Shown in pieces: positions 2,925 through 53,980 of a stretch of DNA of 64,000 nucleotides. Every line of letters starts with the position of its first letter. Position 1 is the stretch's first letter. A program made the translations under genes and the position numbers. Origin of the DNA: Lachnospiraceae bacterium GAM79 (lineage in GTDB: Bacteria > Bacillota > Clostridia > Lachnospirales > Lachnospiraceae); assembly GCA_020735665.1 (NCBI GenBank), contig CP085928.1:496001-560000 (forward strand). Direction: 5' to 3'. The notes under the pieces are model-generated. The model was not told the DNA's origin. It saw only the letters and a list, made by a program, of their open reading frames with translations, and ran no database searches.

Positions 2925-3228
2925 TCGTATTCCTCCTTTTTATTCAGATACGATAAGCCGTATCTGATGCGCAAGCAACATACTAACACAAATAATTTAG
3001 CGTTTCCATAGAAAAAGTCCTTAAATATCGGTAAAAAGTGCATAACATGTTTTTGTAATGTTCTTCTAACAGAATGGTAACAGAATATCAATAAAAAGCC
3101 TATTTTAGAAAACATAAGCAGATAAAGATAATGCTGATAAAGACGCAAATACAGAAAAGATATAACTTGCATGTAAAATGTGAGATGAGTATAATTCATT
3201 ATTGGATAAAAAAGAAAGCAGGAATATT

Positions 3229-7278: not shown

Positions 7279-7384
7279 GAGAACAGTCAGAACGTGAAAA
7301 TGCAGGATATGGTTATTGTAAAAGGATAACTATATGCTGCATTTTTATGATTTGTATAACTATATAACTGCATTTTTATGGCAG

Positions 7385-7413
7385 TTGATATTTTCTGAGT
7401 GTTCCACTATACT
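7385..7413 (+). promoter_or_regulatory. Promoter upstream of hydG
   Basis: TTGATA (7385-7390), 17-bp spacer, TATACT (7408-7413). It lies 131 bp ahead of the chosen hydG start and is the best promoter match in the gap. Confidence 0.55.
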
Positions 7414-7544
7414 ATTATTAAGTATAGATTGAAGCATAACAAAGGTCTGCTCACGGATATATTGATTTTATAGAACACACGAGGCAGATCAGATGATTGT
7501 ACAGGAAGAAGAATTATATAGCAGAAGAAAAGAGGCAGATACAA

Positions 7545-8966: not shown

Positions 8967-9056
8967 CAGATGATCGAAATAAGAGCTCCATACAGATAAA
9001 AGAGATTGCAGATAAATGCTGAAGCAGACAGCGTATAACAACAGGGAGGGCAGCAC

Positions 9057-10259: not shown

Positions 10260-10330
10260 AAGAGAAATAAAATAGCAAATAAAACAGATTAGTTATAAAA
10301 AATAAGATGATAAAATACAGGAGAATAACC

Positions 10331-37922: not shown

Positions 37923-37942
37923 TATAGTATTTATGTTTATAG

Positions 37943-37975
37943 ATGGCATTCTAACAGGAAGTGTTAGGATGCCAT
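37943..37975. repeat. Inverted repeat (14-bp arms)
   Basis: ATGGCATTCTAACA (37943-37956) pairs with TGTTAGGATGCCAT (37962-37975), one wobble, 5-nt loop. There is no U tract, so it is not a canonical terminator. Confidence 0.6.
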
Positions 37976-37995
37976 AAGAAGTTTGGAGAATTTTG

Positions 37996-38370
37996 ATGAC
38001 AAAAGAGGAATGGTATAAGCAGCTATTTGAGAGACTTGGTAATTCCAAGTTCCGAAGCAGCTTTCATTTAAAGCAGAAGGATATTGATTACATAAATGAA
38101 AAAGGACTGGATACTATAAGACAGCATGCGCAGGACTTTATTGCAAAGCGGGAAGCTCCGGCGGTTATTCCAAACGATGGAAAACAGACGCCGATGAAAG
38201 GGCATCCGGTATTTATCGCACAGCATGCAACTGCAACCTGCTGCAGGGAGTGCATCCGAAAATGGCATAAGATACAGCTGGGCAGGGAATTGAGCCAGAT
38301 ACAGCAGGAGTATCTTGTGGATGTGATCATGACCTGGATTCAGAGAGAGATGGAGAGAAATAAGGATTAG
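37996..38370 (+). CDS. DUF4186 family protein
   Basis: A 124-residue soluble protein with the pattern LGNSKFRSSFHL, INEKGLDTIRQHAQDF, KRxAPA and HATATCCRECIRKWH, which I recognise as the DUF4186 family of unknown function. The QHATATCC and IRKWH cysteine/histidine residues could bind a metal. Start ATG 37996 follows TTGGAG. It is the first gene of the accessory block, followed by the Fic gene. Confidence 0.7.
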   Translation: MTKEEWYKQLFERLGNSKFRSSFHLKQKDIDYINEKGLDTIRQHAQDFIAKREAPAVIPNDGKQTPMKGHPVFIAQHATATCCRECIRKWHKIQLGRELSQIQQEYLVDVIMTWIQREMERNKD

Positions 38371-38385
38371 ATAGGTAAAAATAAT

Positions 38386-38470
38386 ATTTCCTTAATTGGG
38401 ATAGAATATTATAAGATTATTCGCTTAATTTGTTGACTATTCCCTTAATTAACACTATTATTTAAGGAAA
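38386..38470 (+). promoter_or_regulatory. Fic gene promoter with repeated ATTNSCTTAATT boxes
   Basis: Three direct boxes occur: ATTTCCTTAATT (38386-38397), ATTCGCTTAATT (38419-38430) and ATTCCCTTAATT (38439-38450). An inverted half box, TTTAAGGAA, is at 38461-38469. A promoter TTGACT (38433-38438), 17-bp spacer and TATTAT (38456-38461) overlaps the last box. Confidence 0.6.
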
Positions 38471-38489
38471 AGGAAGGAGAAGTAAGGGA

Positions 38490-39536
38490 ATGCGAAACTT
38501 CAATTATTCTGCAATTAAATATCAGAAATGGGATTCAGAGATTTTAGGGTTAATTGCTGCTATTTATAAAGAAGCTGGAAAACAGGAGATGTATTTGAGG
38601 CAGCGTCCAGAAGAACTTGATAAACTTGTAGAGATTGCAAAAATACAAAGCACCGAGGCATCTAATGCTATTGAAGGCATTGTTACGACGAGTACCAGAA
38701 TGCGTCAGCTTGTTGAAGAAAAGACAACACCTAAGAACCGGGATGAGCAGGAAATTGCGGGGTATCGTGATGTTCTGAATGTTATTCATGATAGCTTTGA
38801 TGCGATTCCTATTACAAAAAATTATATTTTGCAACTGCACAAGATGTTATATAGTCATATGAACAATCCGCTTGCAGGGCAAACAAAGAATGTACAGAAT
38901 TATATTAGTGCTACTTATCCAGATGGACATGTCGAAGTGCTGTTTACACCACTTGCTCCATTTGAAACACAGGAGGCACTCGACAGAATCTGTGAGGAAT
39001 ACAATCGTGTCATAGGAAATATGGAATTGGAGCCACTTATTGCTATCCCTGTTTTTATACATGACTTTCTATGTATTCATCCTTTCAATGATGGAAATGG
39101 AAGAATGAGCCGTCTGCTCACTACATTACTGCTATATCGGAGTGGATTCTATGTTGGAAAGTATGTCTCATTGGAAGCAAAGATTGCCAAGAATAAAGAC
39201 CTGTACTATGAGGCTCTTGCTGCGGCTCAGCCGGGCTGGCATGATGGAACAGAAGATGTAGTGCCATTTATTAAATATTTACTTGGTACCATTCTTGCTG
39301 CCTATAAAGACTTTGAAGACAGAATGGCGTTGGTTGAAATAAAACTACCTGCACTTGAAATGGTACGGAGAGCAAGTCATAATAAAATTGGACGTTTCAA
39401 TAAGCAGGATATACGGGAGCTATGCCCTACACTCAGTGACAGCTCTATTGAAGGTGCATTGCGAAAATTGGTTGCATCAGGAGAATTGAGGAAAGAAGGA
39501 AAAGGAAAAAATACCTGCTATTTTGGGGTGAGGTAG
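38490..39536 (+). CDS. Fic family AMP-transferase-like protein
   Basis: Soluble 348-residue protein. The Fic loop HPFNDGNGRMSR (197-208) keeps every catalytic residue for AMPylation or related transfer. The inhibitory helix motif SNAIEG (58-63, S-x3-E-G) sits N-terminal, so this is a class II-like Fic with built-in inhibition. Residues ~290-348 form a winged-helix-like end (NKIGRFNKQDIRELCPTLSD). That domain may bind the repeated boxes in its own promoter. Start ATG 38490 has GGAAGGAG upstream. The target is unknown; it is commonly seen in accessory DNA. Confidence 0.88.
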   Translation: MRNFNYSAIKYQKWDSEILGLIAAIYKEAGKQEMYLRQRPEELDKLVEIAKIQSTEASNAIEGIVTTSTRMRQLVEEKTTPKNRDEQEIAGYRDVLNVIHDSFDAIPITKNYILQLHKMLYSHMNNPLAGQTKNVQNYISATYPDGHVEVLFTPLAPFETQEALDRICEEYNRVIGNMELEPLIAIPVFIHDFLCIHPFNDGNGRMSRLLTTLLLYRSGFYVGKYVSLEAKIAKNKDLYYEALAAAQPGWHDGTEDVVPFIKYLLGTILAAYKDFEDRMALVEIKLPALEMVRRASHNKIGRFNKQDIRELCPTLSDSSIEGALRKLVASGELRKEGKGKNTCYFGVR

Positions 39537-39676
39537 GTGTATTGCTTGGGTAAAATTGCTGGAAAAATGCTTAGATCAGAAAATTTTCCAATACGAATGG
39601 ATAGTATAGTAATTGAAACAATGAAATGATACGTTATTGTTAGTTTTAACATAGAAATACTAAGGGGGAGATTTAG

Positions 39677-42600
39677 TTGAAAAATATAAATTCTATTCAA
39701 AATGCAATCATACAGTTGGAGGGGGGAGCCTTTCAAAAATTGTTTGATGCATATCTTTACAAAAAATATAAATTTAATAATATTCAAACTTTGGGAGTTG
39801 AAACAGGAACTAATAAAACTACAAAGGGGACACCTGACTCATATGTAGTAACTAATGATGGAAAATATATTTTAATAAACTATGGAACTGTAAGTTCAAA
39901 TCCTGTAGAGAAAATACGTGCTGATATTTTATCATGTTTTGATAAATCGAAACTATCAATACCTAAGGAGAAAATAAAAAAAATAATTTGTGGTCACCGT
40001 TCTACAAATATTCATATAGAGCAATTCGATAACATTATGGAAATTATTGATGGCATCGAAATTGAACTTATTGGAATAGATACGCTTTCACATGATTTGG
40101 CATTATTTTATCCACATATTGCAAAAGATGAGCTTGGGATTTCAATTGATACAAATCAATTTTTTGAGATAGAGGATTTTGTTAAAATATATGATGTATA
40201 TGGTATAAATGCGCCAATTAATTGTGATTTTCTTCATAGAGAGCTGGAACTTAATGAGACATGTACTAGTATACTTAATAACAAAGTGACCGTATTGACA
40301 GGACCATCGGGAATTGGAAAAACAAGATTGGCCATAGAAGCATGTAGACGACAAGATTCTGAAAAGATAAAAGTTTTCTGCGTCAAAAGTAATGGAAATC
40401 TTTTATATAATGATATAAGGTATTACATTTCTGATCCTGGAAGATATCTAATTTTCTTCGATGATGCTAATATGGTTGCAAGTATAGATAATGTGCTTAA
40501 TACTATTTTGACATTATCAACAGATTTTGATGTTAAGATACTTATTTCCGTAAGAGATTATGCCAAAGATAGAGTGATAGAGGCTGTATCAATGTTTGTA
40601 TTACCTTGTATCATTGAAATTGGAGAATTTAAGGATGATGAAATAAAAGATATTTTAAAGTCGGACTTAGGGATAGTGAATCCAGATTATCTTAAAAAGA
40701 TTGCAGATATTGCAAATGGAAATATTAGACTTGCTTTTCTTGCAGGTATGCGATCAATAGATGACGGATATCAAGCAATATGTAATGCTGAGGATATTTT
40801 TAAAAATTACTATGGAAGAATTATCAATGAAGCGAAGCTGACAAAAGAAGATGTGCTTATGTTGTTTTTTATTGCTATAGCTGGACCGGTGAAAAATAAT
40901 GAAAATCAACTGTATAGTGATATAAAAAATTTATATGGAGAGAAAATTATTGAGGATGATATAATTGAAAAATTGTATTCTTTGGAATTAATAGATTGGT
41001 TTAAAAACGAGATAACAAAAATTGCAGATCAAAGTTTTAGCAATTATATACTTTATTATGTTTTATTTGAGAAAAGATGGATAAGTGTAGAAAGCTTGAT
41101 ATCAATGGGATTTCCTACATTTCGGAATAAAATAATATATACATTGAATACTCTGTTAACAATATTCAATTCAGAAGAGTGTAAAAAATATATTAAAGAA
41201 TCAATAATTGCTGCGTGGAATAATGCACCAATGGAACAGGATATGGAGTATCTTGAATCGTTTTATCGAGTTAATCCAGATAAGGCCTTATCTATTATTA
41301 AGAATTGTATAGATCAAGAATCGAACGTTGATTTTGACTTACATAGTTTTGATATTAACTCTAAAAAAAAATATCACAAAATTACAAAAAAAATAATAGA
41401 AATTTTGGGAGGTTATAAATATACAAAGAACTTTGAAGATGCAGTTGATCTTTTGATGCTGTACTATAAAAAAAGGCCAGATTTGATAATGGATTTTAAT
41501 TTTGTGTTAAGTGATCGGTTATTATATGATAAATATTCATATAGAGATAGGTATAATCATGAAATGCGTTTGTTAGATAAGTTATGGGCTTATACAGGGG
41601 AGGGTGAAAACTATAATAACAGCATACTGTATTTACAGATTGCTGAATGTGCATTAAAAACAGAAGTGTCTTTTACAGAAGAGATTAGAAATAGCAGATC
41701 AGTCAATTTTGTAAGGATGACACTTCGTTATACTAAGGAATTAGCTCATATACGTACTCGTATATGGCAGAATCTAGCTATTTTACGTAAGAAAAAAGAG
41801 TATTATAATGCAATCAATAACTTCCTTTTAGAAATTCATCTTAATAGATTAGACGAAGAGGACTCTAAGAATTATTTACAGCTAGATTTTAATATAATAT
41901 ATGACTATATAATTGACAAGAATTCGCCTGATTTTTTTGATGCGATGGTTATTGCAAAATACAAAGAGGCAGCAGAGCAAATCGGCATAAAGCCGGATCA
42001 TCGTTATATGGTTGCTGAGAGAAATACAGAGTTCAGAATTTATAGAATGCTGACCTATGAGCCTTTGACTGGTCAAACAATAGAAGAAGATGAGCGCTTA
42101 CATAAAGAGTTTATTTCGAAAGAAATAGACACATATGATTTGAATGATTTTCAAAAATTATTTTGCTCTTGTAAATTTCTGGAAAAGATAGTCTATGATA
42201 GGGAACAATGGTCACTAGATTCGGGGTTAGATTATATTTTTGAAATTCTAGAAGATAAATCCGATTTATATTTGAAGGTGCTTAAAGAATATTTTGATGC
42301 AAATGCACCATTTAGGTTGAATGGATATCGCCAGGTAAAATATTTGCTTGATCATATAGGCTATGAAGCAACATATTGCTTTGTAAATGATAGTGCATTT
42401 GACAAGAGAGATATATGGATGTCATTTATTTGGGAGTGTGTGCCGGAAAAAGAAATAAATGAGAAGATTGCTAATGATTATAAAGCTTTTATAGTTAATA
42501 ATTTGGCAAATGACAAGCCAATCATTACTACAGTACAGGTTATGGCTCGTTACAGTGAACAAGATAGTGAATTTAAAGCAACAGTAATAAAAGCGATATT

Positions 42601-43384
42601 AACTAATTCTAAACTATCGGCAAGTTTTTTAGACCATGTACGTAATAATGATACAGAGGTAGATAGGATTATTAATTTCTTTAGAAATGATATTGATGCA
42701 TTGGTAAGAATTTATATGAATGCGCTAGAAAATAGTCATTATGTTGATTACAGTGGAAAACTTTTTGCAAAGATATTCGAGAAACAACCTATAGTTTGGA
42801 AGAAATATATTGATTGGGTTAAATCAAAAGATAATATGCACAGAGATGGAAATGTACGTAAAATTTTTGAATTAATATGGAGAAAAGATAAGTGGCGTGA
42901 ATGTGTGGAATATGCATTTAAGATTCTTATAGATGACGACATGATCTTTTACATAAAAGAACCGGCTGTTTTATTATTTGCTAAGACATCAGATGAAATT
43001 ATAATGAAACGAAAGAAATATTGGCTGTTTGAAAAGATACGGGAAAACAATTTTGAAATTGATAAATGTAAAAGATTTATAGATATGGTTGTAAATGTCT
43101 TGCCGGATTGGAAATTGGAATATATTCTTGAATTCCTAAAAGAAAACAAGAAGCTGGAAGATTTCAAGAAAATACACTTATTTCCCTCATCTTGCTCATG
43201 GTCAGGAAGCGAGATCCCATTAATTATGCAAAAAATAGACTTCCTCAAATTACTGAAGGATAATCTTAAGGGTATTGACTATATTGACCACAGAAAATAT
43301 ATAGAAGAATATTGTATAAATCTTGAAAAGGAAAAAGAGAAAGTAGAATTAAGAGAATATCTTATGAATGCCGATTATGCATAA
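39677..43384 (+). CDS. Large STAND-type NTPase, putative defence protein
   Basis: A 1235-residue cytosolic protein. Residues 1-150 are an N-terminal domain with QLEGGAFQKLFDAYLY and TKGTPDSYVVTNDGKYI, resembling PD-(D/E)xK-type effector domains of Avs-like proteins, though the catalytic acid/Lys pair is unclear (YILINYG). The STAND NTPase follows: Walker A TGPSGIGKTR (208-217), Walker B YLIFFDDANM (257-266), KILISVRDYAKD. The C-terminal ~750 residues are helical repeats, likely the sensor. TTG 39677 follows GGGGGAG. It is very AT-rich, implying transfer. An antiviral role is inferred. Confidence 0.75.
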   Translation: MKNINSIQNAIIQLEGGAFQKLFDAYLYKKYKFNNIQTLGVETGTNKTTKGTPDSYVVTNDGKYILINYGTVSSNPVEKIRADILSCFDKSKLSIPKEKIKKIICGHRSTNIHIEQFDNIMEIIDGIEIELIGIDTLSHDLALFYPHIAKDELGISIDTNQFFEIEDFVKIYDVYGINAPINCDFLHRELELNETCTSILNNKVTVLTGPSGIGKTRLAIEACRRQDSEKIKVFCVKSNGNLLYNDIRYYISDPGRYLIFFDDANMVASIDNVLNTILTLSTDFDVKILISVRDYAKDRVIEAVSMFVLPCIIEIGEFKDDEIKDILKSDLGIVNPDYLKKIADIANGNIRLAFLAGMRSIDDGYQAICNAEDIFKNYYGRIINEAKLTKEDVLMLFFIAIAGPVKNNENQLYSDIKNLYGEKIIEDDIIEKLYSLELIDWFKNEITKIADQSFSNYILYYVLFEKRWISVESLISMGFPTFRNKIIYTLNTLLTIFNSEECKKYIKESIIAAWNNAPMEQDMEYLESFYRVNPDKALSIIKNCIDQESNVDFDLHSFDINSKKKYHKITKKIIEILGGYKYTKNFEDAVDLLMLYYKKRPDLIMDFNFVLSDRLLYDKYSYRDRYNHEMRLLDKLWAYTGEGENYNNSILYLQIAECALKTEVSFTEEIRNSRSVNFVRMTLRYTKELAHIRTRIWQNLAILRKKKEYYNAINNFLLEIHLNRLDEEDSKNYLQLDFNIIYDYIIDKNSPDFFDAMVIAKYKEAAEQIGIKPDHRYMVAERNTEFRIYRMLTYEPLTGQTIEEDERLHKEFISKEIDTYDLNDFQKLFCSCKFLEKIVYDREQWSLDSGLDYIFEILEDKSDLYLKVLKEYFDANAPFRLNGYRQVKYLLDHIGYEATYCFVNDSAFDKRDIWMSFIWECVPEKEINEKIANDYKAFIVNNLANDKPIITTVQVMARYSEQDSEFKATVIKAILTNSKLSASFLDHVRNNDTEVDRIINFFRNDIDALVRIYMNALENSHYVDYSGKLFAKIFEKQPIVWKKYIDWVKSKDNMHRDGNVRKIFELIWRKDKWRECVEYAFKILIDDDMIFYIKEPAVLLFAKTSDEIIMKRKKYWLFEKIRENNFEIDKCKRFIDMVVNVLPDWKLEYILEFLKENKKLEDFKKIHLFPSSCSWSGSEIPLIMQKIDFLKLLKDNLKGIDYIDHRKYIEEYCINLEKEKEKVELREYLMNADYA

Positions 43385-43817
43385 AGACTTTTGAGAGCAT
43401 GGAGAAAGTATGGGACTGATAAAACCTATTACAATTGGCAAGATAAAGTATGCATCAGGTTATTATAAGTTTCTATTGAAATTAGTAATAAAGTATCTAG
43501 ATGGATAGTATTTGAGGACAAAGCATGTACAGCAATTGCATGATATAATGAAAAATGCACATCTCAGTCAGTAGTCTGCCCCCTTAACTAACTACGATTT
43601 GACTACTACATACTGCCCCCCAATTGCTGCATTTTGAAGTGTTTTACGAAAAGTGTAGTCATTAATAGGAAAAATACAATGCCACCAAAAACGGTAAACC
43701 AACGCAAAAATCGGCATTACAGGGTATTTGCGTGAAATAACCACTATGCTGGCATAAGTGGCTATTTGATGGAGATCGTGACAATGTGCGATAGCGAGAT
43801 GAGAACAGGAGAATTTT
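43385..43817. other. Left flank of the integrated island, no intact gene
   Basis: No complete gene is visible. There are GACTACTA-like boxes (43569-43575 on the minus strand, 43601-43608). A 27-codon reading end with MCDSEMRTGEFYD stops near 43825 and resembles the tail of a mobile-element protein. Confidence 0.4.
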
Positions 43818-43848
43818 ATGATTAAAGTATTATTCATCTGCCACGGCA
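43818..43848 (+). repeat. 31-bp near-copy of the LMW-phosphatase gene start (putative left att)
   Basis: ATGATTAAAGTA-T-ATTC-TCTGCCACGGCA matches 27 of 31 bases of the region at 54153-54183, where the intact phosphatase gene begins. Afterwards the two diverge. A palindrome CTTAGTAGT/ACTACTAAG follows at 43992-44014. Confidence 0.5.
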
Positions 43849-44043
43849 CTCCAGTTTTATGATAATGCATATCTTCGCAGACTGGGGCAACACAGGGCAG
43901 AATATGGCAGAAAGCCTTGGAATTACTACGGTTTCGACTACTAAGGCTCATGGGCGGAATCGGGATAAAGGCAAAGGTGTTGGGAGAAATCCTTAGTAGT
44001 AACCGACTACTAAGCGATGGCACACATACAAAACTTTGAACAT

Positions 44044-44100
44044 AAAAAGCCACAATCGTTGGGAGCAAGAACACAGGGATTGTGGCTTTTACTAACATAG
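44044..44100. terminator. Bidirectional terminator at the mcrC-like gene end
   Basis: AAAAGCCACAATC (44045-44057) pairs perfectly with GATTGTGGCTTTT (44088-44100). T tracts exist on both strands. Confidence 0.8.
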
Positions 44101-45666
44101 CTATTGCAAGTCGGCTAAATTTGCAGTTGTGTTATTGAGATAGTGATTGAACATAAAAGTAGGTGAAAGCATACGAACCTCGACTACACCTAGACCAATA
44201 TTAACATCTAAGTCTTTAAGTACATTGAATTTCACATAGCCCATTACTTTAGGATCGTTCTCGCGTTGTGGCATGAGAAAATAATTTTTTACTTCCACTG
44301 TTTGATGTTGAACCTCGCGAAGTTGCTTCAGTATGTCTTTGTATGCAATGAAATACATGTATTGTTTTGCCACATCCTCAACACCAGGTTGACCTTCAAT
44401 TTTATTATCAGTCCATACAGGGCAGTAGTACTTGGCATCTAAGATATAAAAAATATAGTGATTTCTCTGCCCTGTATTTTCGAATCTTAAATAATCAGGT
44501 TTTAAAGTAGCGGTAGGAAGCCCGGTACTTCCTTTTTTATATTTTTTCCATATTGGTTGCTTTATTAGCTCAACTAAAGTCGGTGGTTTTTGTGCAAATT
44601 CCTTATTTATAACGGAGTAATCTATATTAGGCTCAATCTCTGTTACGTCAGGATGTCTGGATTTATCAGCTTTTTGACTTTTGAATACTTTTGCGCATAC
44701 TTCTTCCCAAATTAAGTTGAAAGAACGAGTTCCTATAAGTTGGATTTCAGTATCACCAACAAGTATTTTACTACTCTTGAAATATAATTTCATAGCTTTT
44801 AATACCATTATCTTTCGATCATCAAATGTCTCCGATAAAGCTAAATCCAATTTTTCAAGAATATAATCAGTGTCACCAAATGAATCTATTTCATCATCTG
44901 AGATTTCAGCATACGGTAGGCTAAAAAAATCACTTAATCCAGCAGCATCTATTTCATAGGAACAGGATGTTACAACATAGGCATGCAGTCTTTTAATAAA
45001 ATCGTAATCATCACATACATTGCGTTGGGTGTATAATTCGACATACAAAGGCCTGTTATCTGTGATAATAGGATATGTATCATCGATTGTTTTTTGCCAC
45101 AAAATATTATCACTACCATTTATTTCTATAATAGCTTCATCTGTTTCATAAGGACCGTTCGTAGCGTAATCTTCAAGTAGAAATAACATTACAGATAAGG
45201 TGTTCGGTTTGCCGTTATCATCTTCATCAACAAATAAATTTATATCTCGAATATCCTGTTTTGTTTTTTCTCTACTATACTTTTCAATAACACGTACAAC
45301 TTGTGTTAATTCTTTTTGAGGCTCATAAGTTGGAAGAGCAGTGGCGCTTCCGATATATTTGGGATAAACATATATTATTCGATTTTGGCATATGGCTATG
45401 CCCACAAAGGAAAATTTATATCTTTTAGTATTTGCAACAAGATCGCTATCATCATAATTTTCAAATTCGATATCGGCTTCATCAGGTTGTTGTTTTTTTT
45501 CGGCTTTTAAAATATTTCTACTGAGTAATTCCTTTATATAAGATTTCAAATGCCTAGAGACTTCTTCCTCTGTGGAGTAGCTTTCTTTATTGAAAAGAAA
45601 CATCTCCTTAATGCTTTCGATGGAATAATACCAGTCTTCCCTTACATAAGCGGAAATAACAGACAT
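44101..45666 (-). CDS. LlaJI/McrC-like restriction subunit
   Basis: Predicted nuclease partner of the McrB-like ATPase, 521 residues. The pattern YVYPKYIGS, FEDKYxxL-type helix region and a C-terminal stretch with DYLRFENTGQRNHYIFYILDAKYY, which carries D...(15-20)...DAK, is what expected of a PD-(D/E)xK McrC-type nuclease. Start ATG 45666 follows AAGGAG. It begins 16 bp after the ATPase stop, so both are in one operon, after the methyltransferase. LlaJI is a known relative by family memory; the specific family is inferred. Confidence 0.75.
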   Translation of the reverse strand: MSVISAYVREDWYYSIESIKEMFLFNKESYSTEEEVSRHLKSYIKELLSRNILKAEKKQQPDEADIEFENYDDSDLVANTKRYKFSFVGIAICQNRIIYVYPKYIGSATALPTYEPQKELTQVVRVIEKYSREKTKQDIRDINLFVDEDDNGKPNTLSVMLFLLEDYATNGPYETDEAIIEINGSDNILWQKTIDDTYPIITDNRPLYVELYTQRNVCDDYDFIKRLHAYVVTSCSYEIDAAGLSDFFSLPYAEISDDEIDSFGDTDYILEKLDLALSETFDDRKIMVLKAMKLYFKSSKILVGDTEIQLIGTRSFNLIWEEVCAKVFKSQKADKSRHPDVTEIEPNIDYSVINKEFAQKPPTLVELIKQPIWKKYKKGSTGLPTATLKPDYLRFENTGQRNHYIFYILDAKYYCPVWTDNKIEGQPGVEDVAKQYMYFIAYKDILKQLREVQHQTVEVKNYFLMPQRENDPKVMGYVKFNVLKDLDVNIGLGVVEVRMLSPTFMFNHYLNNTTANLADLQ

Positions 45667-45682
45667 AGTATCAACTCCTTAA

Positions 45683-47317
45683 TTAGTGTGTTAAATCGAT
45701 TCTTTTATTATTTCGTTCTGTTTCTTGATTGGCATATTCTTTAGTCCTAAAATTGTCACCAAAAATACCAAGACCTATTCGTCTAAACTCTGAGCAGACA
45801 AAAGAATATCTGTTTAGCTTTTCTTTCGGGCGAATGCCTTCAAATAGGTCTGGTCGTTTGGTCTTTGCAGCATCTTCAAATAGGTACATAAGCACTTTGT
45901 CACAGAACAATTTAATGAAATCTGCATCTTTCGTTGCAGGAGAAAAGATACTATTGCAACTCGCATCTAATATTTTTATAAAGAAAGGTCCCATTAGTTT
46001 ATCTTCATGCATTCTTATTTTTTCATTTGAAAGTTTCAGATTTATTGCTCTTCTTAGAACATTCCATTCAATTGGTCCATCAGCTAAGTTGAATGTGTCA
46101 TTTTGATTCTCTACAGGTGTTACATGACCTCCGCTTCCAGGAATTGGTACAATTTTAAATTCTTCATCATCTACACCAATATAATTAAATCCCCATCTAC
46201 GTTTGAATGCGGTATCCATAGGAAATACACCTTGGTCAGCGCTGTTCATAGTAGCATAGATATACATATTGTTTGGAATACGCAACTCAGAGTAATCATT
46301 TGACGATCCGCCAAAAGTATCGGCCAAGTATGCTCTGACGTCTTCACTAGCATTGATCGAGTATTCACTTTTGCCGCTGTCGTCTCTATCTAAAAGTTGA
46401 AACATATCTCCAAATACGGCAGCAGCCTTTGCACGATTTATTTCTTCTATAATAAGGTAAAAATTTTCGGGTGTGTTGGTTAATCCACTTTCTAATGCTT
46501 TTTTTAATATTCTCATAAATGGACCGGGAACGAATTTATATGTAATTGTGCCACCAATTTCAATAGGTTTGTAAGTTCCAACAAATTGAGAGTAAGAATA
46601 GTCTGCAAAAAAAGTAACTCTTTCGTAATTTGTTGACGAAACGCCCAAATCATCAAGCTTTTTCTTGAAACCATAGCTTTTCCCTGTTCCAGGTGCTCCA
46701 AATGCAATTATGTTTTTTTTATCAGTATTTGTGTTTGGTTCATAGTTGAAAGCTCTTAATGCAGTTACAAAATATGGCCTCAAATCAAACATTCCAAAGT
46801 ATTCTTTCATTTTTGTGGTCAAATTAGTGGTTCTATTTTTGATTCTTATGAAAGATGCCTGGAAGATGCTACAGGTATGGTCTGATTTATTACATCTTAC
46901 ATAGTCTTGTGGACCGTGGGTGGCGGTATAATTATCTAACCATTCGTATAGGCTTCTGATATCCATACGACCTGACATATTGTTCATATTTGTTTCAATA
47001 GAAATAATGTATTCATCTAGTGTGATATTGGACATGTATGCTACATATGTCATTGCTTTACTATAAATAGTCAAACAAAAAAAGCGTTTTCCTTCGGTGC
47101 GTGCAGTCTTAAAGGCTTCAACTGCCTTGTCTGCAAAGATTCTGATTTGTGGCTTTGATCTATCTGTGCCAGTGATAGAAACATCGGCATATGAGATGAT
47201 TACATTTTCTCCGGAAGGGAGTATAATTTCATCCATATTCAAACTACTATTTCGTATAGTTCTTGTATATCCTAATTGATTGTCTATATAGTCTCTTATA
47301 ATATCTGTTGAATTCAT
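45683..47317 (-). CDS. McrB-like AAA+ GTPase/ATPase of a restriction system
   Basis: Motor subunit, 544 residues from ATG 47317 (GAGGAGG upstream). Residues 1-190 form an N-terminal DNA-recognition domain. The AAA+ module has Walker A GAPGTGKS (207-214), Walker B FYLIIEEINRA (286-296), and ATMNSADQGVFPMDTAFKRR, the McrB-type NTAD-like signature plus arginine finger. It follows the methyltransferase by 13 bp and precedes the nuclease by 16 bp. It translocates DNA or opens the complex for the nuclease. Confidence 0.88.
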   Translation of the reverse strand: MNSTDIIRDYIDNQLGYTRTIRNSSLNMDEIILPSGENVIISYADVSITGTDRSKPQIRIFADKAVEAFKTARTEGKRFFCLTIYSKAMTYVAYMSNITLDEYIISIETNMNNMSGRMDIRSLYEWLDNYTATHGPQDYVRCNKSDHTCSIFQASFIRIKNRTTNLTTKMKEYFGMFDLRPYFVTALRAFNYEPNTNTDKKNIIAFGAPGTGKSYGFKKKLDDLGVSSTNYERVTFFADYSYSQFVGTYKPIEIGGTITYKFVPGPFMRILKKALESGLTNTPENFYLIIEEINRAKAAAVFGDMFQLLDRDDSGKSEYSINASEDVRAYLADTFGGSSNDYSELRIPNNMYIYATMNSADQGVFPMDTAFKRRWGFNYIGVDDEEFKIVPIPGSGGHVTPVENQNDTFNLADGPIEWNVLRRAINLKLSNEKIRMHEDKLMGPFFIKILDASCNSIFSPATKDADFIKLFCDKVLMYLFEDAAKTKRPDLFEGIRPKEKLNRYSFVCSEFRRIGLGIFGDNFRTKEYANQETERNNKRIDLTH

Positions 47318-47330
47318 AAGCAAGCCTCCT

Positions 47331-48176
47331 CTAATAATTAGTGACAACAATATGAGTGGTGTCGGTATCAAAACGATTTCGGATGTTAACGGAATATCTT
47401 ACTGGATATTCTGAGACAATATGTCCTGCATATAATTCTTCGGTTAATGGAGTTCTTCCAATTACCATAAGAATTCTGCAATTGACGTTTTGTATAGCAG
47501 AAGCTAGTCTCCTGTGTTCATCTTCACCGAAATTAGTTGTCATATTGCCGTAGTCGTGAAATATACAGTCATATGGTGGATCTAAAAACATAAAATCGTT
47601 TGCATTTGCTAGTGCAAATATATTTTCAAAATCAGTTTGCAATATTTGCGCATTCTGAAGTAATGTACTGTGTTGAGGTAATATGTTATTTACGCGAAAA
47701 TGTTTATATCTTCCAAAAGGAACATTATATTGGCCTTGAGCATTATAACGAATCATTCCAGAGTAGGCTGTCTTATTAATGAAATAGTACAAGGTGCCAT
47801 CTAAGTAAGTGGAAGGTGTTAATCCATTATACATATCACGCAATTGATAATATAAGGGCTCATTATTATTTGGCACTCTGGCTTCGGGATGTAAGGTCTT
47901 TTGCCTTGCATATACAGTTTCGTTTTGCTCATAGAGCACATGTAATTCAGTTAGTTCTTGCATTAACTGAGGATAATTGTTGGCAACTTGCTGATAAAAA
48001 TTAATCAATGGATGGTTTATGTCGTTTATAATTGATTGGACTGGTTCTTGATCAAAAAAAACTGCACCTCCACCAAAGAATGGTTCAATATATGTTGTGT
48101 AGTTTTGAGGGATAAGATTTCTGAAATTTGGTATTTCACGTCTTTTTCCACCTCTATATTTAAGTAATGGCTCCAT
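47331..48176 (-). CDS. D12-class DNA adenine N6-methyltransferase (Dam-like)
   Basis: A 281-residue methyltransferase. Motif I region LLKYRGGKRR, EPFFGGGAVFF (31-41) and catalytic FMFLDPPYDC (DPPY 199-202) identify the alpha-amino adenine class. I chose ATG 48176 with TAAGGAGG seven bases upstream; upstream in-frame codons to 48251 have no ribosome site. The stop is 13 bp from mcrB. It likely protects sites that the downstream McrBC-like pair cuts; the recognition sequence is unknown. Confidence 0.9.
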   Translation of the reverse strand: MEPLLKYRGGKRREIPNFRNLIPQNYTTYIEPFFGGGAVFFDQEPVQSIINDINHPLINFYQQVANNYPQLMQELTELHVLYEQNETVYARQKTLHPEARVPNNNEPLYYQLRDMYNGLTPSTYLDGTLYYFINKTAYSGMIRYNAQGQYNVPFGRYKHFRVNNILPQHSTLLQNAQILQTDFENIFALANANDFMFLDPPYDCIFHDYGNMTTNFGEDEHRRLASAIQNVNCRILMVIGRTPLTEELYAGHIVSEYPVRYSVNIRNRFDTDTTHIVVTNY

Positions 48177-48387
48177 GTATTCCTCCTTACCCCCAGGGGG
48201 AGTATTATCTTTGTGACTATTCATCTTAAAGACCGATGCCCCCTCAAACACGTTTTTTCGCGAAATTGCATAGGGGGGATTCTGGTGTCTTTTAACATAT
48301 TTTATATAATATCATAGCACATAATTGCATGTATCTGGCTGACATTAGATACAATAATCTATTTGCCTTTCCGCCAAATCATATAAA

Positions 48388-49491
48388 TTAATGTGCTTTT
48401 TTCTTGATTTTTTGAGCCTTTTCAATGGCTTTTCGCTCACGATAGGCTTTTTGCTTTCGGGCATTTCGAACTTTCTGGCATTCTTCGGCATCACAAAACT
48501 CCTGTCGGTTGCTCTTTCGTATTATGAATTTACCACAGTTTCGACAACGAATCATAATGCCTTCTGGACGATTATCTGATTTCCCTTTATCTTCTGGTGC
48601 AGGGTCTTCGGAAAGCATTCTTGCAAGTGTCAGCCATGCAATATCAAATACAGAATTAATATCGGTAGAAAATTCTAATCGGTTAGTGCGGGGATCTACC
48701 TTTAATTTCATGGTAAATTCCGGAATGATGTCAATAAGAGCATTCCGCAATTCATCGTAATCGTCATATGGTGTAGTAGCAAATTCTCCGGTTGGAGGAT
48801 TTTCTGCCGGATGATTTGTAATGTACTCATTATCAATTCGCATTTCTTCTATGAGGTTTCCTTTTGCATCCCCATAATCTAAGTCATCCGGTATTGCAAC
48901 GATAGGATGCTTATATTTATCAAAGAAAGAGTAGCCCTCAAAGTATTTTCCTTCTTTGGATAAATCATATGCAGCTTCGTCATCGGCAATACAGATACCT
49001 TCGAGAGCAACATAAAACATGACTGCATTATATAATTTTCCGAGGTCATCTAAGAAGTTGTTAATCTCGAATGTTCCGTCTTTTTCTACCATTTCTGCAT
49101 CGAAGCTATTTATATCAAACGATTCATTCAATTTAGAATAAATGAAATCAATATTATATGGATGCATATTATTTGTACACCATTCCATGATGAGCTGTGT
49201 ATATGGAATTTTATTATCAAAGCTGTTTATCTGCATTGCCAGATTGCAAAGGCTGGTAAGCAGTCCCTGTCCGGAAAGAAAATCTTCTTTAGGAAATATG
49301 GGTTCATATCCGGGGCGGCAAAATGGTGTTGCACAATAATCATCGCTTTTATCAATATCAAGTTCATATTTCTTGAATCGGAAAGGGTGGTAAATCAGTT
49401 GCCCGATACCACCGATTTCTTTAAATCCTAATATATCTGTTGTTTTATCTGCTTCTGATGGAATCGTTTCATCATTCCAGTTTAATGGCAT
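48388..49491 (-). CDS. Hypothetical protein with C-terminal zinc ribbon
   Basis: A 367-residue protein of no known role, encoded just upstream of the restriction operon. It is rich in Asp/Glu with no enzymatic motif. The C terminus holds CRNCGKFIIRKSNRQEFC followed by DAEECQ, a four-Cys zinc ribbon, and ends in a basic tail (RKQKAYRERK), consistent with nucleic acid binding. ATG 49491 (GAGG seven bases upstream) is preferred to ATG 49503. A function linked to the neighbouring restriction genes is possible only by context. Confidence 0.6.
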   Translation of the reverse strand: MPLNWNDETIPSEADKTTDILGFKEIGGIGQLIYHPFRFKKYELDIDKSDDYCATPFCRPGYEPIFPKEDFLSGQGLLTSLCNLAMQINSFDNKIPYTQLIMEWCTNNMHPYNIDFIYSKLNESFDINSFDAEMVEKDGTFEINNFLDDLGKLYNAVMFYVALEGICIADDEAAYDLSKEGKYFEGYSFFDKYKHPIVAIPDDLDYGDAKGNLIEEMRIDNEYITNHPAENPPTGEFATTPYDDYDELRNALIDIIPEFTMKLKVDPRTNRLEFSTDINSVFDIAWLTLARMLSEDPAPEDKGKSDNRPEGIMIRCRNCGKFIIRKSNRQEFCDAEECQKVRNARKQKAYRERKAIEKAQKIKKKAH

Positions 49492-49727
49492 ATCATACCT
49501 CATTCCAATCGTTAATTCGTAACCGTTAGCGTTACCGTCAGTTTTTGGACTTCGGTTACATTATAGCTTAAAATATTCATGAAAACAATAAAAAGTTACA
49601 CAAAATGATGTAACGGATTTGTACCTTGACAATTTCATCCCGTTCTTAATGAACAAGCCTTTGTTACTGCGTGGACTGGTAGCCGCCAAGAGCGGTAGCA
49701 GAGAATAGAAGAAATGGCATCTGGCTT

Positions 49728-50054
49728 ATGAATGATAAGACAGCACTTGCACTCAGAAAGCTGAAGGATAACGATGGCAATTATTTGTGGAATCAGGCAA
49801 ATGATACAATTCTTGGCAAACAGGTTATTATTTCGGAATATATGCCGGATATCGAAACAGGTACTAAGCCGATTGCATTTGGTGACTTTTCTTATTACTG
49901 GATTGTGGGAAGAAAGCCTGTGACGGTAAGAACATTGTTGGAAAAATTTGTACTGTATGATCAGATTGGATATCTTGCATTTGAGTACCTTGATGGAAAA
50001 CTTGTAAGAAATGAAGCAATCAAGGTTATCCAGATGGCAGATGCAGGGAAATAA
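49728..50054 (+). pseudogene. Fragment of an HK97-type phage major capsid protein
   Basis: The 108-residue frame matches the C-terminal part of HK97-fold capsids: NDKTALALRKLKD, then ILGKQVIISEYMP, KPIAFGDFSYYWIVGRKPV, and DQIGYLAFEYLDGKL. The ~280 N-terminal residues expected are missing; the frame upstream continues only a little without family similarity. This is a prophage remnant inside the island. The stop at 50054 is followed by a 260-bp gap with a GC-rich stem. Confidence 0.7.
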
Positions 50055-50321
50055 TCATAGAATTGTTTGATTTTATTTCTATCATCTTGAATGGGATATA
50101 TGCCTCTTGTATGGTATTTAGCTGTATTGGGGGTTAATACCCCGTTTAAATTCGCAGTTTTTGTGCGTGAAGGGGCGGCACCGTTGCCCGGCATGAAAGG
50201 TGACAGAGATTAAGACCGCCCCTGGGGGCAAATATCACAGAATCAGAGTGAAAATGACAAAAAAGAAAAAATAGTACAAAGGAGTCAGCTGTGTGACCAC
50301 CTTGTCGGAAGGAGAGATACT
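50055..50321. other. Spacer with GC-rich hairpin ahead of the excisionase
   Basis: AGGGGCGG (50171-50178) pairs with CCGCCCCT (50217-50224), 38-nt loop. No gene is visible. Similar GC-rich structures stand near recombination modules, but a role is not shown. Confidence 0.4.
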
Positions 50322-50531
50322 ATGAATGCAGAAAGCAATGAAGCGCTTTCTGTTAGTGAGAAGTATATGCTCACCATCAAGGAGGCAGCAGCTTATTTTA
50401 ATATTGGTATAAAGAAACTGAGAAGAATTGCAGAGGATAACCTTGGAACGGTGGCGGTGTACTGCGGAAACAGATTCCTGATCATCCGCCCGAAGTTTGA
50501 AGAATTTATTAGTGGTTCTTCAGAAATATAG
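50322..50531 (+). CDS. Tn916-type excisionase / helix-turn-helix protein
   Basis: A 69-residue basic DNA-binding protein with a winged MerR-like helix: LTIKEAAAYFNIGIKKLRRI, then YCGNRFLIIRPKFEEFI. This is the Tn916 Xis-like excisionase layout. ATG 50322 follows GGAAGGAG. It stands 318 bp ahead of the integrase and probably directs its excision role. Confidence 0.8.
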   Translation: MNAESNEALSVSEKYMLTIKEAAAYFNIGIKKLRRIAEDNLGTVAVYCGNRFLIIRPKFEEFISGSSEI

Positions 50532-50639
50532 TTCCTTTTATCTGCCGAAAGTAGTTGCTATTACAGGGCAGAAGAGCGAACATAGAATGACCCCGAAAAC
50601 CCTTGAAAACAGCCACTTTTGGAAGAAAGGAAGTGTTTT

Positions 50640-50849
50640 ATGGCATGACCAGATTTAGCAGAAAAGGATATTTTGAATCCTTCTGAGGCAATCGAATATT
50701 TTGTTTTGAGCCGGAGAAAATTTTATGATTTATTGAATAATACGGATGGGGAAGATTTCCTGGCATACTACGGAGAACGCAAGCTGATTCTTCGTGTAGC
50801 CTTTGAAAGGTATCTGCGTAACCATCCAGAGTTGAGGAGGCGGGTATAA
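50640..50849 (+). pseudogene. Second excisionase-like frame with an early stop
   Basis: A further helix-turn-helix frame runs to TAA 50847-50849, with NPSEAIEYFVLSRRKFYDLL, then YYGERKLILRVAFERYL. The ATG at 50640 (GGAAG upstream) reads only two codons before an in-frame TGA at 50646-50648. Translation might instead start at TTG 50673. The frame touches the integrase ATG (TAATG), typical of coupled xis-int pairs. It may be a nonsense mutant. Confidence 0.6.
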
Positions 50850-52132
50850 TGGCAAAGGCAGGAAGAGGACAGACAAGGCGGGATTCCAAACGCAGGGTTC
50901 TCAGGCCGAGAGAGCGCGTAAGGGCAGATGGAAAATATCAGTATAAGTACCATATTGATGGAAAACCACATTTTGTCTATAGTTGGAAACTGGAGCCTAC
51001 GGATAAACTCCCAAAGGGCAAGAAACCATGCCTTTCCCTTCGAGAGTTGGAAAAACAGGTAAACACAGATTTAGATTTGCTTGTAAATATCGTGGACGGA
51101 CAGATGACAGTATGTGAACTGGTAGACCGTTATCTGAAAACCAAAACAGGAGTAAGGCAGAGCACCAAGCAGGAATATGTTATATTGCAGAGATTACTTG
51201 CAAAGGAAGCATTCGGGAAAAAGACGATACGAAGTGTGAAAACTTCCGATGCAACGCTGTTCCTTATAAAATTGCAACAGGAAGATGGAAAAAGCTACAG
51301 TTCCATTCATACCATCCGGGGAGTGCTGCGACCAGCTTTTCAGATGGCTGTGGATGATGACATTTTGGTAAAGGATCCATTCGGATTCCAGCTTGCTGGA
51401 GTTGTGGTAAATGATTCGGTAACAAGAGAGGCTATTAGCAAAGACCAAATGAGAAAGTTTCTAAAGTTTGTCCATGACGATGTGGTGTACTGTAAATATT
51501 ATGAAGTGGTTTACATACTTTTCCACACGGGAATGCGAATATCGGAATTTTGCGGTCTGACACTGAAAGATATTGATTTGGATAAGCGAATCGTTAATAT
51601 CGACCATCAGCTACAGAGAACATCAGATATGAGGTATATTATAGAAACTACAAAGACGGATGCCGGAACAAGGAAACTTCCTATTACAGAGGATGTGGCG
51701 CAGATGTTTCAGGCAATCATTGAGGATAGAAACGCACCGAAAGTGGAGAAAGCCATAGATGGATATAGCGGATTTCTATTTTATGATGATAATGGAATGC
51801 CACTTGTGGCAATGCATTGGCAGCACCGATTCAACCATATGGTTGGCAGATACAATGACATCTACCGAGTGCAGATGCCAAATATTACACCTCATGTATG
51901 CCGACACACCTATTGTTCGAATATGGCAAAATCGGGAATGAATCCAAAGACATTACAATACCTCATGGGGCATTCGGATATATCGGTCACAATGAATGTG
52001 TACACACATATCGGATTCGATGATGCTGAGGAAGAATTGAAGCGAATGGAAGAGTTTAGGAAGGCGCAGGCAGAGATTGAAAAGAAAAACGATGCAAAAG
52101 CGGTATCGCAAAAAATGTTTAAGGTAGTGTAG
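50849..52132 (+). CDS. Tyrosine recombinase (Tn916-type integrase)
   Basis: A 427-residue site-specific recombinase. An N-terminal arm-binding domain (GQTRRDSKRRVLRPRERV) precedes the core-binding domain. The catalytic set is visible: Arg in HTGMRISEF, Lys in ETTKTDAGTRKL, HVCRHTYCSNM (H-x2-R), and Tyr in MNVYTHIGFDD. The start overlaps the preceding stop (TAATG). Its target appears to be near the phosphatase gene at 54153, judged from flanking repeats. It likely moves the restriction-bearing island. Confidence 0.93.
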   Translation: MAKAGRGQTRRDSKRRVLRPRERVRADGKYQYKYHIDGKPHFVYSWKLEPTDKLPKGKKPCLSLRELEKQVNTDLDLLVNIVDGQMTVCELVDRYLKTKTGVRQSTKQEYVILQRLLAKEAFGKKTIRSVKTSDATLFLIKLQQEDGKSYSSIHTIRGVLRPAFQMAVDDDILVKDPFGFQLAGVVVNDSVTREAISKDQMRKFLKFVHDDVVYCKYYEVVYILFHTGMRISEFCGLTLKDIDLDKRIVNIDHQLQRTSDMRYIIETTKTDAGTRKLPITEDVAQMFQAIIEDRNAPKVEKAIDGYSGFLFYDDNGMPLVAMHWQHRFNHMVGRYNDIYRVQMPNITPHVCRHTYCSNMAKSGMNPKTLQYLMGHSDISVTMNVYTHIGFDDAEEELKRMEEFRKAQAEIEKKNDAKAVSQKMFKVV

Positions 52133-52149
52133 CAATACTACATAGCAGA

Positions 52150-52179
52150 AACGCTCTGGTTATACTGGAGCGTTTTTTC
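52150..52179 (+). terminator. Intrinsic terminator of the integrase
   Basis: AACGCTC (52150-52156) pairs with GAGCGTT (52168-52174), followed by TTTT. Confidence 0.8.
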
Positions 52180-52249
52180 TATGGAAAAATGATAAGGGTG
52201 GCGATATAATATATAACAATAATGTTACTAATGAAAAGAGGTATTTTGT

Positions 52250-53197
52250 ATGGGAATTGAAACTGCTGCAGGTGTTGCTGGTAAAGCAGCGTTAGAGTTG
52301 GTTCAAAATGAAAATGTGTTAAACAAAACTGTAGGGGCTTTAGGAATGTTATTCCCCTATGCAGGTATAACAAAAAAAGCTGTTGATATGTATATTGCTG
52401 AAATTGAAAAATCGGATATGCCAATAGATGCGAAAATGTATGCCATGATGAATGCAAAAAAGCAACTTAAGCAGATGAAAAATCAGAAACAAATTGCAGA
52501 GATTGCAATGCAGAACGCTAAAGAAGGAACAAGTTTTACGAGTGATTGTGGTGTGAGTGAAGAGTGGCTAGAGCGTTTTATGGATTCGGCAGCTTATGTG
52601 TCAGATGAAAACATACAGCTTATATGGGGAAAAATTTTAAGTAATGAGTTTGATAATCCGGGAACTACTCCACCTAATATGATAAGAATATTATCAGAAA
52701 TGACACCTACATATGCTAAGGCTTTTAGACAATTATGTAGCATGAGGTTTTTGATTGTTTCTATTTCTGAAAACGAGGAAATAACGGGAGCATATTGGAA
52801 GATGGCAGTTCCATATAGCGAAAATATCGAATTAATGAATGAATTGGGAATTTCTTTTCAAGTAATTAATGAGTTGGAAACACTAGGAGTGATAAAGTTT
52901 GATTCAGTTGCCGGGTATATTACAACAGGAATTAAAGATAAAAAAGTGCTTCTTTGTGTAAATGGAAAAACAATGGAAATAACCCAACACGAAAGTGAGA
53001 GTATTCCGATTGGAGATGTGATTTTGACTTCTGCAGGGGAAACACTTAAAAACATAACAACGATTGAAGAAATCGAAGGATATGATGAGGCTGTAAAAAA
53101 ATATATGTGTTCTGCAGGAGTTCTATTTAGTGAAGAGGAACACTATCAAATTGTTTTAACGGGTAATAGATTTCAGGTTAAAAAGAAAGAAGTATAA
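52250..53197 (+). CDS. DUF2806/TIGR03899-like protein, first of a two-gene module
   Basis: A 315-residue protein with a hydrophobic first third (GMLFPYAGITKKAVDMYI), a lysine-rich helix (MNAKKQLKQMKNQKQIAEIAMQ, abbreviated), and the block YVSDENIQLIWGKILSNEF, which recalls the DUF2806 family. The C terminus is a mixed beta domain. The family's role is unknown. A TATAAT-like box precedes it at 52205, and the EEP gene starts 16 bp after its stop. Being between the integrase and the island's right end, it is typical cargo. Confidence 0.65.
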   Translation: MGIETAAGVAGKAALELVQNENVLNKTVGALGMLFPYAGITKKAVDMYIAEIEKSDMPIDAKMYAMMNAKKQLKQMKNQKQIAEIAMQNAKEGTSFTSDCGVSEEWLERFMDSAAYVSDENIQLIWGKILSNEFDNPGTTPPNMIRILSEMTPTYAKAFRQLCSMRFLIVSISENEEITGAYWKMAVPYSENIELMNELGISFQVINELETLGVIKFDSVAGYITTGIKDKKVLLCVNGKTMEITQHESESIPIGDVILTSAGETLKNITTIEEIEGYDEAVKKYMCSAGVLFSEEEHYQIVLTGNRFQVKKKEV

Positions 53198-53213
53198 TTA
53201 GAGAGAGTTATAT

Positions 53214-53972
53214 ATGCGAATTTTAAGTATCAATATAAATGATTTTGGTGGGTTAGAAAATCATCTAATGGAGCATAAAAAATACAATGCTTGGGTTGGT
53301 AGAGAGTGTATTGACTGGAAATACTGGAGTGCTATAGATAAAGATGTAGTTTTCAATAAATTTCTTAATTATATTGAGGATAAGCAACCGGATGTTTTAA
53401 TAGTTAATGAAATGATAGTTAGTCCACTAGAAAGAATAGATTTTATATCAAAAATAGAAGAGATGGGTTTTTCTTATTTTGATGAAACAATACCGAGCGG
53501 AAAATACTCATTTACAATGATGTTTTATAAAAATATGAAATGTACGTTATTTGCATCTCCTAACAGTGGTTATCGAGAAAATAGGTCTATTTTGTATTTT
53601 GTTGAAGGGATTTATGTAAATGGTACACATTTTCCACAGGAAAGTGATACTAAGTTTCTAAATGCTGTTGAGATGTTTTGTAAGGCGAGGAAAAATGATA
53701 AAGTAATAATTATTGGAGACTTAAATGCAAATGATGTTTCTCGAGGCAATAAACAATTGGTGGAGAGATTGAAAACATATGGATATGAGGATGTGTGGGT
53801 TCAAAAGGGAAATCCAGATGATACAGTAACTGAGGCAAAATATAGAGGAAGATTGGATTATGCAATCGCTTCAGAAGCAGTTTATGCATCTATTTCAAAT
53901 ATGGAAATAGATCCTATGCCGATGGATTGTGGAATGACAGACCATGCGGCAGTAATTATAGATGTGGTTTAA
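53214..53972 (+). CDS. Endonuclease/exonuclease/phosphatase (EEP) fold protein
   Basis: A 252-residue hydrolase. Key residues of the fold are visible: N-terminal Asn in MRILSININD, Glu66 (IVNEM), His139 (GTHF), GDLNAND (Asp169, Asn171), RGRLDYA, and Asp243-His244 in MTDHAAV. This is consistent with a metal-dependent nuclease or lipid/sugar-phosphate phosphodiesterase. With the DUF2806-like protein 16 bp upstream it makes a small operon. AT-rich, fitting recent transfer. Substrate unknown; a toxic effector is inferred. Confidence 0.82.
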   Translation: MRILSININDFGGLENHLMEHKKYNAWVGRECIDWKYWSAIDKDVVFNKFLNYIEDKQPDVLIVNEMIVSPLERIDFISKIEEMGFSYFDETIPSGKYSFTMMFYKNMKCTLFASPNSGYRENRSILYFVEGIYVNGTHFPQESDTKFLNAVEMFCKARKNDKVIIIGDLNANDVSRGNKQLVERLKTYGYEDVWVQKGNPDDTVTEAKYRGRLDYAIASEAVYASISNMEIDPMPMDCGMTDHAAVIIDVV

Positions 53973-53980
53973 ATGTTTTC

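Follow-up and report, generated by a model that had tools for sequence, protein, structure and literature searches.

A LlaJI-type McrBC operon with a D12 adenine methyltransferase in Lachnospiraceae bacterium GAM79: a probable restriction-modification system and signs of module exchange

The genome of Lachnospiraceae bacterium GAM79 (contig CP085928.1) carries, in the 64,000-nucleotide stretch at positions 496,001 to 560,000 (the whole of which is called the window below), a three-gene operon on the minus strand (window positions 48176..44101). In the direction of transcription, it encodes a DNA methyltransferase of the D12/Dam family, a McrB-like AAA+ protein, and a LlaJI-type McrC nuclease subunit. 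McrBC is usually taught as a methylation-dependent nuclease. Sequence comparison makes it highly probable that this operon is a type II restriction-modification system on a McrBC chassis, in which methylation protects DNA from cutting. We also lean, by a modest degree, toward a broader reading: LlaJI-type McrBC would be a general chassis that exchanges matched methyltransferase and McrB N-terminal 'write-and-read' modules as units, and the N-terminal domain of the window's McrB-like protein would represent an undescribed sequence-specific family that reads an unmethylated, probably GATC-containing site.

In the proposed mechanism, the D12 enzyme would methylate adenine at the N6 position within one short site, on either strand of the host DNA, and the N-terminal domain of the McrB-like protein would bind the same site only if it is unmethylated. 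The AAA+ ring would then hydrolyze guanosine triphosphate (GTP), move along or remodel the DNA, and activate the McrC-like PD-(D/E)XK subunit, by which invading DNA would be cut. If specificity modules move as units, the motif of the neighboring methyltransferase predicts what an uncharacterized McrB N-terminal domain reads, and natural fusions would, if this is true, be on offer for building GTP-driven, site-specific nucleases. Moreover, annotators are warned against labeling LlaJI-type pairs as type IV.

The operon and its products

The genes are separated by gaps of only 13 bp (methyltransferase/mcrB) and 16 bp (mcrB/mcrC), with a plausible ribosome-binding site at each. A sequence-only reading of this DNA had called a McrBC/LlaJI pair and a Dam-like D12 enzyme in one tight operon; both its coordinates and its gene calls are borne out by the family matches, the motifs, and the short gaps. 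As the order methyltransferase(s), mcrB, mcrC recurs in relatives, the operon is not a chance association.

The putative adenine-N6 DNA methyltransferase (281 amino acids; 47331..48176, minus strand) matches Pfam MethyltransfD12 (E 2.4e-42) and the NCBIfam dam subfamily (203 bits), and its best solved relative is 2dpm, the DpnII methylase 1 (E 1e-31). Its gene starts with the ATG at 48176, preceded by AAGGAGG, and stops at 47331; the starts given in the open reading frame list, 48251 (GTG) and 47371 (TTG), are mechanical extensions, and 48176 is the better start. The DPPY motif lies at amino acids 199-202 (47571-47582, minus strand). Residues K9, Y119, R124, P134, and Y138 of E. coli Dam, which we take to have roles in DNA contact, are conserved in the alignment as K6, Y138, R143, P153, and Y157.

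Six members of the methyltransferase clade were examined, the window's enzyme and five others that are about 47-59% identical to it, and in five of the six a restriction nuclease is encoded directly beside the methyltransferase. Two, those of the window and of locus L033, sit with LlaJI-type McrBC. Three, which are 50-56% identical to the window's methyltransferase, adjoin AlwI-family enzymes: L047 on a Leuconostoc plasmid (RE_AlwI, E 5.3e-52), L081 in a genome of the window's genus (E 9.2e-55), and L108 from the same phylum (E 3.6e-55), where the nuclease gene is on the opposite strand and convergent with that of the methyltransferase. AlwI-type enzymes are ordinary methylation-protected systems. 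Characterized relatives of this type are reported to methylate GGATC and GATCC (PMC3526280). The residues held in common with E. coli Dam, together with the AlwI-family partners of the relatives, suggest a target site containing GATC, a tentative assignment to which we give somewhat less than even weight; that there is only one methyltransferase implies that the site, or else the core that is methylated, is palindromic. Counts of such sites in the window (observed/expected: GATC 402/376, GGATC 64/91, GGATCC 6/11) come from a single window without a replicate and are not used as evidence. In the viral contig L046, whose methyltransferase is about 46% identical to the window's, the open reading frame list, which was not scanned for families, holds no adjacent nuclease. 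About 3.6 kb from this viral methyltransferase, an open reading frame of 304 amino acids (2450-3364) has Cys/His-rich repeats and an end that, by eye, resembles a Vsr-type nuclease.

The McrB-like protein (544 amino acids; 45683..47317, minus strand) consists of an N-terminal domain and a motor that matches AAA_5 (E 7.5e-10); the protein also matches the PADLOC REase_II profile (E 4.4e-95). The motor contains the Walker A motif GAPGTGKS at amino acids 207-214 (46676..46699) and the McrB-type NxxD signature NSAD, within TMNSAD, at amino acids 358-361 (46235..46246). The McrC-like nuclease subunit (521 amino acids; 44101..45666, minus strand) matches RE_LlaJI (E 4.3e-55, 187.8 bits) and has the PD-(D/E)XK catalytic motif PD...DAK at amino acids 390-412 (44431..44499); the genome holds one RE_LlaJI gene, with two matched stretches within one open frame.

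The N-terminal domain of the McrB-like protein (amino acids 1-195; 46733..47317, minus strand) is the proposed target-recognition domain, as judged by sequence comparison. Comparison with Pfam, PADLOC, PHROGs, and, at the sequence level, the Protein Data Bank gave no convincing match. No DUF3578, YTH, EVE, or GmrSD_N match was reported for it in a Pfam search whose filters drop most matches with E > 0.1, so that a very divergent domain could escape. The relatives found comprise one intact domain, in L033, and one fragment with stops, in genome G640; none was found in viral contigs, plasmids, or phages. In 392 order-level genomes, the search returned only the window's own copy and the fragment with stops (for the 397 family-level genomes, McrC was the only query).

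Co-variation and exchange of specificity modules

Of 397 family genomes, 19 contain McrC relatives, 12 of which are strong matches (E at most 2.7e-50); such relatives also occur in 7 of 391 class genomes and in 2 of 398 phylum genomes. Each count includes the window's own genome, and some class-level matches are short fragments. The commonest cassette order is methyltransferase(s), mcrB, mcrC, and one or more methyltransferase genes lie immediately 5' of mcrB in 13 of the 14 close-lineage cassettes that have a 5' flank, the window included. The exception, L029, carries its methyltransferase two genes 3' of mcrC. A methyltransferase is present in 10 of 12 more distant cassettes; for the other two, L002 and L075, none was found by motif within the stretch fetched. 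These counts omit L001 and L026, which lie at a contig end, and L072 and L073, which are McrC fragments only. Among the methyltransferase candidates, all 26 scanned ones of the cytosine type match Pfam DNA_methylase, and the scanned ones of the amino type match N6_N4_Mtase, D12, or Eco57I/N6_Mtase models. Those of L043, L067, and L082 were assigned solely from a motif, the start sequence, or the record annotation. Among the compared cassettes, a lone D12 enzyme is found only in the window and L033.

The window and 20 other cassettes were compared with respect to their McrB N-terminal part (or separate specificity protein), AAA motor, McrC, and methyltransferases. This set omits the contig-end loci L001 and L026; L002 and L075, in which no methyltransferase is seen; the broken cassette L043; L067, whose methyltransferase annotation is fragmented; and L072 and L073, which have only pieces of the nuclease. 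The NxxD and PD...DxK patterns failed to match in one of the 21 cassettes, L038. N-terminal parts are homologous in 10 of the 210 pairs, and in all 10 the methyltransferases are also similar; among the other 200 pairs, similar methyltransferases occur in one (L030/L037), at a similarity threshold of 0.45 that was chosen manually with the pair list already in view. In partial Mantel tests, the N-terminal part correlates with the methyltransferase given the motor (r 0.77, p 0.0001), whereas the motor and the methyltransferase, once the N-terminal part is controlled for, give a value of 0.06 (p 0.22). By these comparisons, the N-terminal part of McrB tracks the methyltransferase and not the motor or nuclease, as is expected if both read one site.

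The cassettes of the window and L033 are 58% identical in the methyltransferase (BLAST), 42% in the N-terminal domain, 44% in the AAA motor, and 34% in McrC. The motor and nuclease of the window are closest to those of L025 (AAA 56%, McrC 39%), which has a different methyltransferase pair and no detectable N-terminal similarity to the window. An effector tree was built from 807 concatenated motor and nuclease columns of 15 loci (13 close-lineage cassettes, L001, and L026, with L036 omitted). It splits the window and L025 from the rest with an ultrafast bootstrap of 100 and groups L033 with L029 and L032, also with 100; a constraint uniting the window and L033 is rejected (difference in log-likelihood, 164). 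Two further exchanges, L028/L037 and L070 with L039 and L040, cross the deep split between the nuclease lineages. Taken at the level of sequence, these patterns suggest that the methyltransferase is passed jointly with the target-reading domain from one nuclease machinery to another. Among the matches listed in a literature search that left out most subscription literature, module exchange is not described in titles or abstract openings.

Several observations weigh against the reading as a methylation-protected type II system with matched, exchangeable modules and a GATC-type target. The exact pairing of a D12 enzyme with this N-terminal domain occurs in two loci only, the window and L033. The branches of the window and L025 in the effector tree are long, and several other nodes are weak (38-75); the tree partner of the window is consequently less certain than the rejection of its union with L033. 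Adding the later-found cassette L082 (22 cassettes, 231 pairs) lowers the correlation to r 0.73 (p 0.0002), and it falls further to r 0.59 (p 0.0002) once the near-duplicates L040, L036, and L069 are dropped and to r 0.54 (p 0.0002) once L025 is dropped as well. With L082 included, three pairs are discordant: L031 and L082 share an N-terminal stretch, though only the 188 amino acids next to Walker A, and their methyltransferases do not match; L032 and L082 have matching methyltransferases without N-terminal similarity; and L030 and L037 have methyltransferases in common, their N-terminal similarity being weak (E 0.021). GmrSD_N is a family of modification-dependent systems, and the N-terminal domain of L033 matches it below the threshold (E 0.016, 15.7 bits, cut-off 33.2). 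The fold model of the window's N-terminal domain, made from the single sequence, was too poor to use, with a mean predicted local distance difference test score (pLDDT) of 44.7; a check for a B3-type domain yielded this same poor model and no convincing Pfam or Protein Data Bank sequence match. Finally, no sequence similarity was detected between the N-terminal domain and AlwI enzymes, and the window's methyltransferase has a single domain, whereas M.AlwI is a two-domain fusion (PMC3526280).

L082 itself (6849-11548, in a congener) is a LlaJI-type cassette with a McrB N-terminal part of 501 amino acids and two apparent cytosine methyltransferases. The restriction of its match with L031 to the stretch beside Walker A suggests that long McrB N-terminal parts contain a separate linker domain.

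Known relatives and alternative explanations

The sequence-only reading had also taken the combination with an adenine methyltransferase to suggest methylation-protected rather than methylation-dependent cutting. The comparison supports this proposal through the co-variation of the N-terminal part with the methyltransferase, the AlwI-family partners in three of the six clade loci, and the lack of a reported DUF3578, YTH, or EVE match. The implied novelty, however, is smaller than was suggested, since LlaI, BsuMI, and LlaJI are already described as McrBC-related type II systems whose substrate is unmethylated DNA (PMC2614495), and since the L067 cassette, on a Lactococcus plasmid, carries annotations for pieces of a DNA adenine methylase, for an AAA protein, and for a nuclease of the LlaJI family. 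Combinations of this kind are thus already known, and the window is set apart by having a single D12 enzyme, by an N-terminal domain that matches no family convincingly, and by the module exchange. Like these McrBC-related type II systems, the window has a McrB-like AAA+ protein with Walker A and NxxD motifs, a McrC protein with a PD-(D/E)XK motif, and its own methyltransferase in the operon. The LlaI/BsuMI/LlaJI subfamily is accompanied by a pair of type IIS methyltransferases (PMC2614495), whereas the window has one single-domain D12 gene, the next upstream gene being without a Pfam match. With one methyltransferase instead of a pair, the window represents a single-methyltransferase variant rather than a strict member.

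LlaI, from the Lactococcus plasmid pTR2030, has an adenine methyltransferase and is defined by the two-domain form of this enzyme together with a separate specificity protein; the window departs from this definition, which is modeled here on L038. The LlaI-like cassettes L067 and L038 resemble the window in combining an adenine methyltransferase with McrB-like and LlaJI-type subunits. In L038, however, the methyltransferase is a two-domain D12 fusion, whereas the window's 281 amino acids form a single D12 domain. Moreover, L038 and L067 encode a separate protein (284 and 252 amino acids, respectively) between the methyltransferase and a short AAA gene, whereas the window's McrB-like protein has its N-terminal domain and AAA motor in one chain. 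AlwI-type systems (L047, L081, L108) share the methyltransferase clade of the window, but their nuclease is unrelated. The methyltransferases of BsuMI are of the cytosine type. Its restriction cassette is reported to consist of three open reading frames with a short McrB-like protein of 343 amino acids (PMC1459862), unlike the window's 544. LlaI has likewise been related to McrB (PMC3874153, PMC1459862).

LlaJI, encoded by Lactococcus pNP40 and with a relative in Helicobacter pylori, is described as having a McrB-like subunit with DNA specificity, a McrC-like PD-(D/E)XK subunit, and restriction that is blocked by modification (PMC1459862, PMC3874153, PMC12707154). The window has both subunits in common with it, and its restriction would likewise be blocked by modification. 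LlaJI has two methyltransferases to cover an asymmetric site, and its N-terminal domain is of the B3 type (PMC12707154), whereas the window has one D12 enzyme, and its N-terminal domain matches no family convincingly. The McrB-like subunit of LlaJI has been shown to bind site-containing DNA, and the purified subunits showed neither cleavage nor GTPase activity in vitro (PMC1459862); the cutting step is thus weakly documented even for this prototype. In a 2024 census, a methyltransferase-associated McrBC branch is said to combine the NxxD signature with DNA methyltransferases, as in the window, and is deferred to another publication; the sections of the census on methyltransferase-associated McrBC do not describe module exchange or pairing with D12 enzymes (PMC11090510). 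CoCoNuT systems have an NxD signature, whereas the window has NxxD. The McrB N-terminal readers named in the literature are DUF3578 or SRA-like, YTH, EVE, and B3 domains (PMC7680126, PMC12707154); in E. coli-type type IV McrBC, the reader is the 5-methylcytosine-binding DUF3578, which was not reported in the window under the filters given above.

It is unlikely that the operon is a type IV McrBC merely neighboring an orphan D12 enzyme, with an N-terminal domain that reads a foreign modification (5-methylcytosine, hydroxymethylcytosine, or N6-methyladenine in another context). The modification dependence of E. coli McrBC and of YTH-type archaeal McrB (PMC7680126, PMC12707154), the weak GmrSD_N match in L033, and the distant relatives L002 and L075, in which no methyltransferase is seen in the stretch examined, all speak for such a system. 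Yet none of the DUF3578, YTH, or EVE families was reported for the N-terminal domain, this part co-varies with the methyltransferase, and methyltransferase genes stand immediately 5' in all but one of the 14 close-lineage cassettes; a domain that read the mark of its own enzyme would, in addition, be expected to be suicidal.

Two further explanations concern the surroundings of the operon. It is part of a variable island, next to a truncated capsid gene of a phage (49728-50054) and an intergenic element associated with phages, and it could be a decayed or silent cassette that has survived by chance among phage remnants; this is very unlikely, as all three reading frames are open, with intact catalytic motifs, and as the residues that relatives conserve are retained. 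Equally, the viral contig L046 invites the idea that the main role of the methyltransferase is to regulate or protect a mobile element, as in phages with the gene alone, and that McrBC is accessory. We regard this as exceedingly improbable, given that five of the six clade members directly adjoin a restriction nuclease. The reading as a methylation-protected type II system is the one retained here.

The island and its other features

The operon lies within a low-GC island (37915-53979), whose left matched flank ends at 37915 and whose right flank begins at 53979; the flanking genes are presumably of the GGDEF/HD type on the left and phosphatase-like on the right. The congener G1470 has about 39.6 kb between these flanks, including, near the right end, an integrase region that is 86% identical. 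The island is therefore probably an integration hot spot. The operon's neighbors are a Fic protein, a STAND-like NTPase (weak matches), the truncated phage capsid gene, a Tn916-type integrase, and a DUF2806/Abi_alpha-like protein, a neighborhood that fits a hot spot for exchangeable defense cargo. The STAND/AAA-like NTPase (39677-43384, 1235 amino acids), which adjoins the cassette, has weak family matches and no PADLOC match and is a candidate defense gene. The DUF2806 protein (52250-53197), located beside the integrase, has a sub-threshold Abi_alpha match and may be encoded by an abortive-infection gene. Upstream of the methyltransferase and on the same strand, a protein of 371 amino acids without a Pfam match (48388-49503) has weak PADLOC and PHROG matches confined to a C-terminal Cys-rich stretch. 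An Rfam scan of the island returned nothing at the gathering threshold.

The leader/promoter region of the operon (48177..48387, minus strand) contains a conserved phage-associated element (48207-48281). An RNA hairpin over the methyltransferase ribosome-binding site is no better than in shuffled sequences (z 0.01 and 0.90), and promoter-like sites are not in excess (24 found versus 25.6 in shuffles). The element is 79% identical over 74 bases to a stretch of the congener locus L083 (about 5922-5995), where it is antisense to genes that appear phage-like by eye, and it is partly matched by 29 phage records, 27 of them from Streptococcus phages; in Javan93, the genes on either side of it encode a zinc-finger protein and a holin. 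The element is possibly a packaging-site remnant. Downstream of mcrC, an apparently non-coding stretch (43545-44011) recurs in two congeners (74-88% identical, and 93% over one 45-bp piece). Since its two halves nearly abut in both congeners, the window has about 72 extra bases at 43730-43801.

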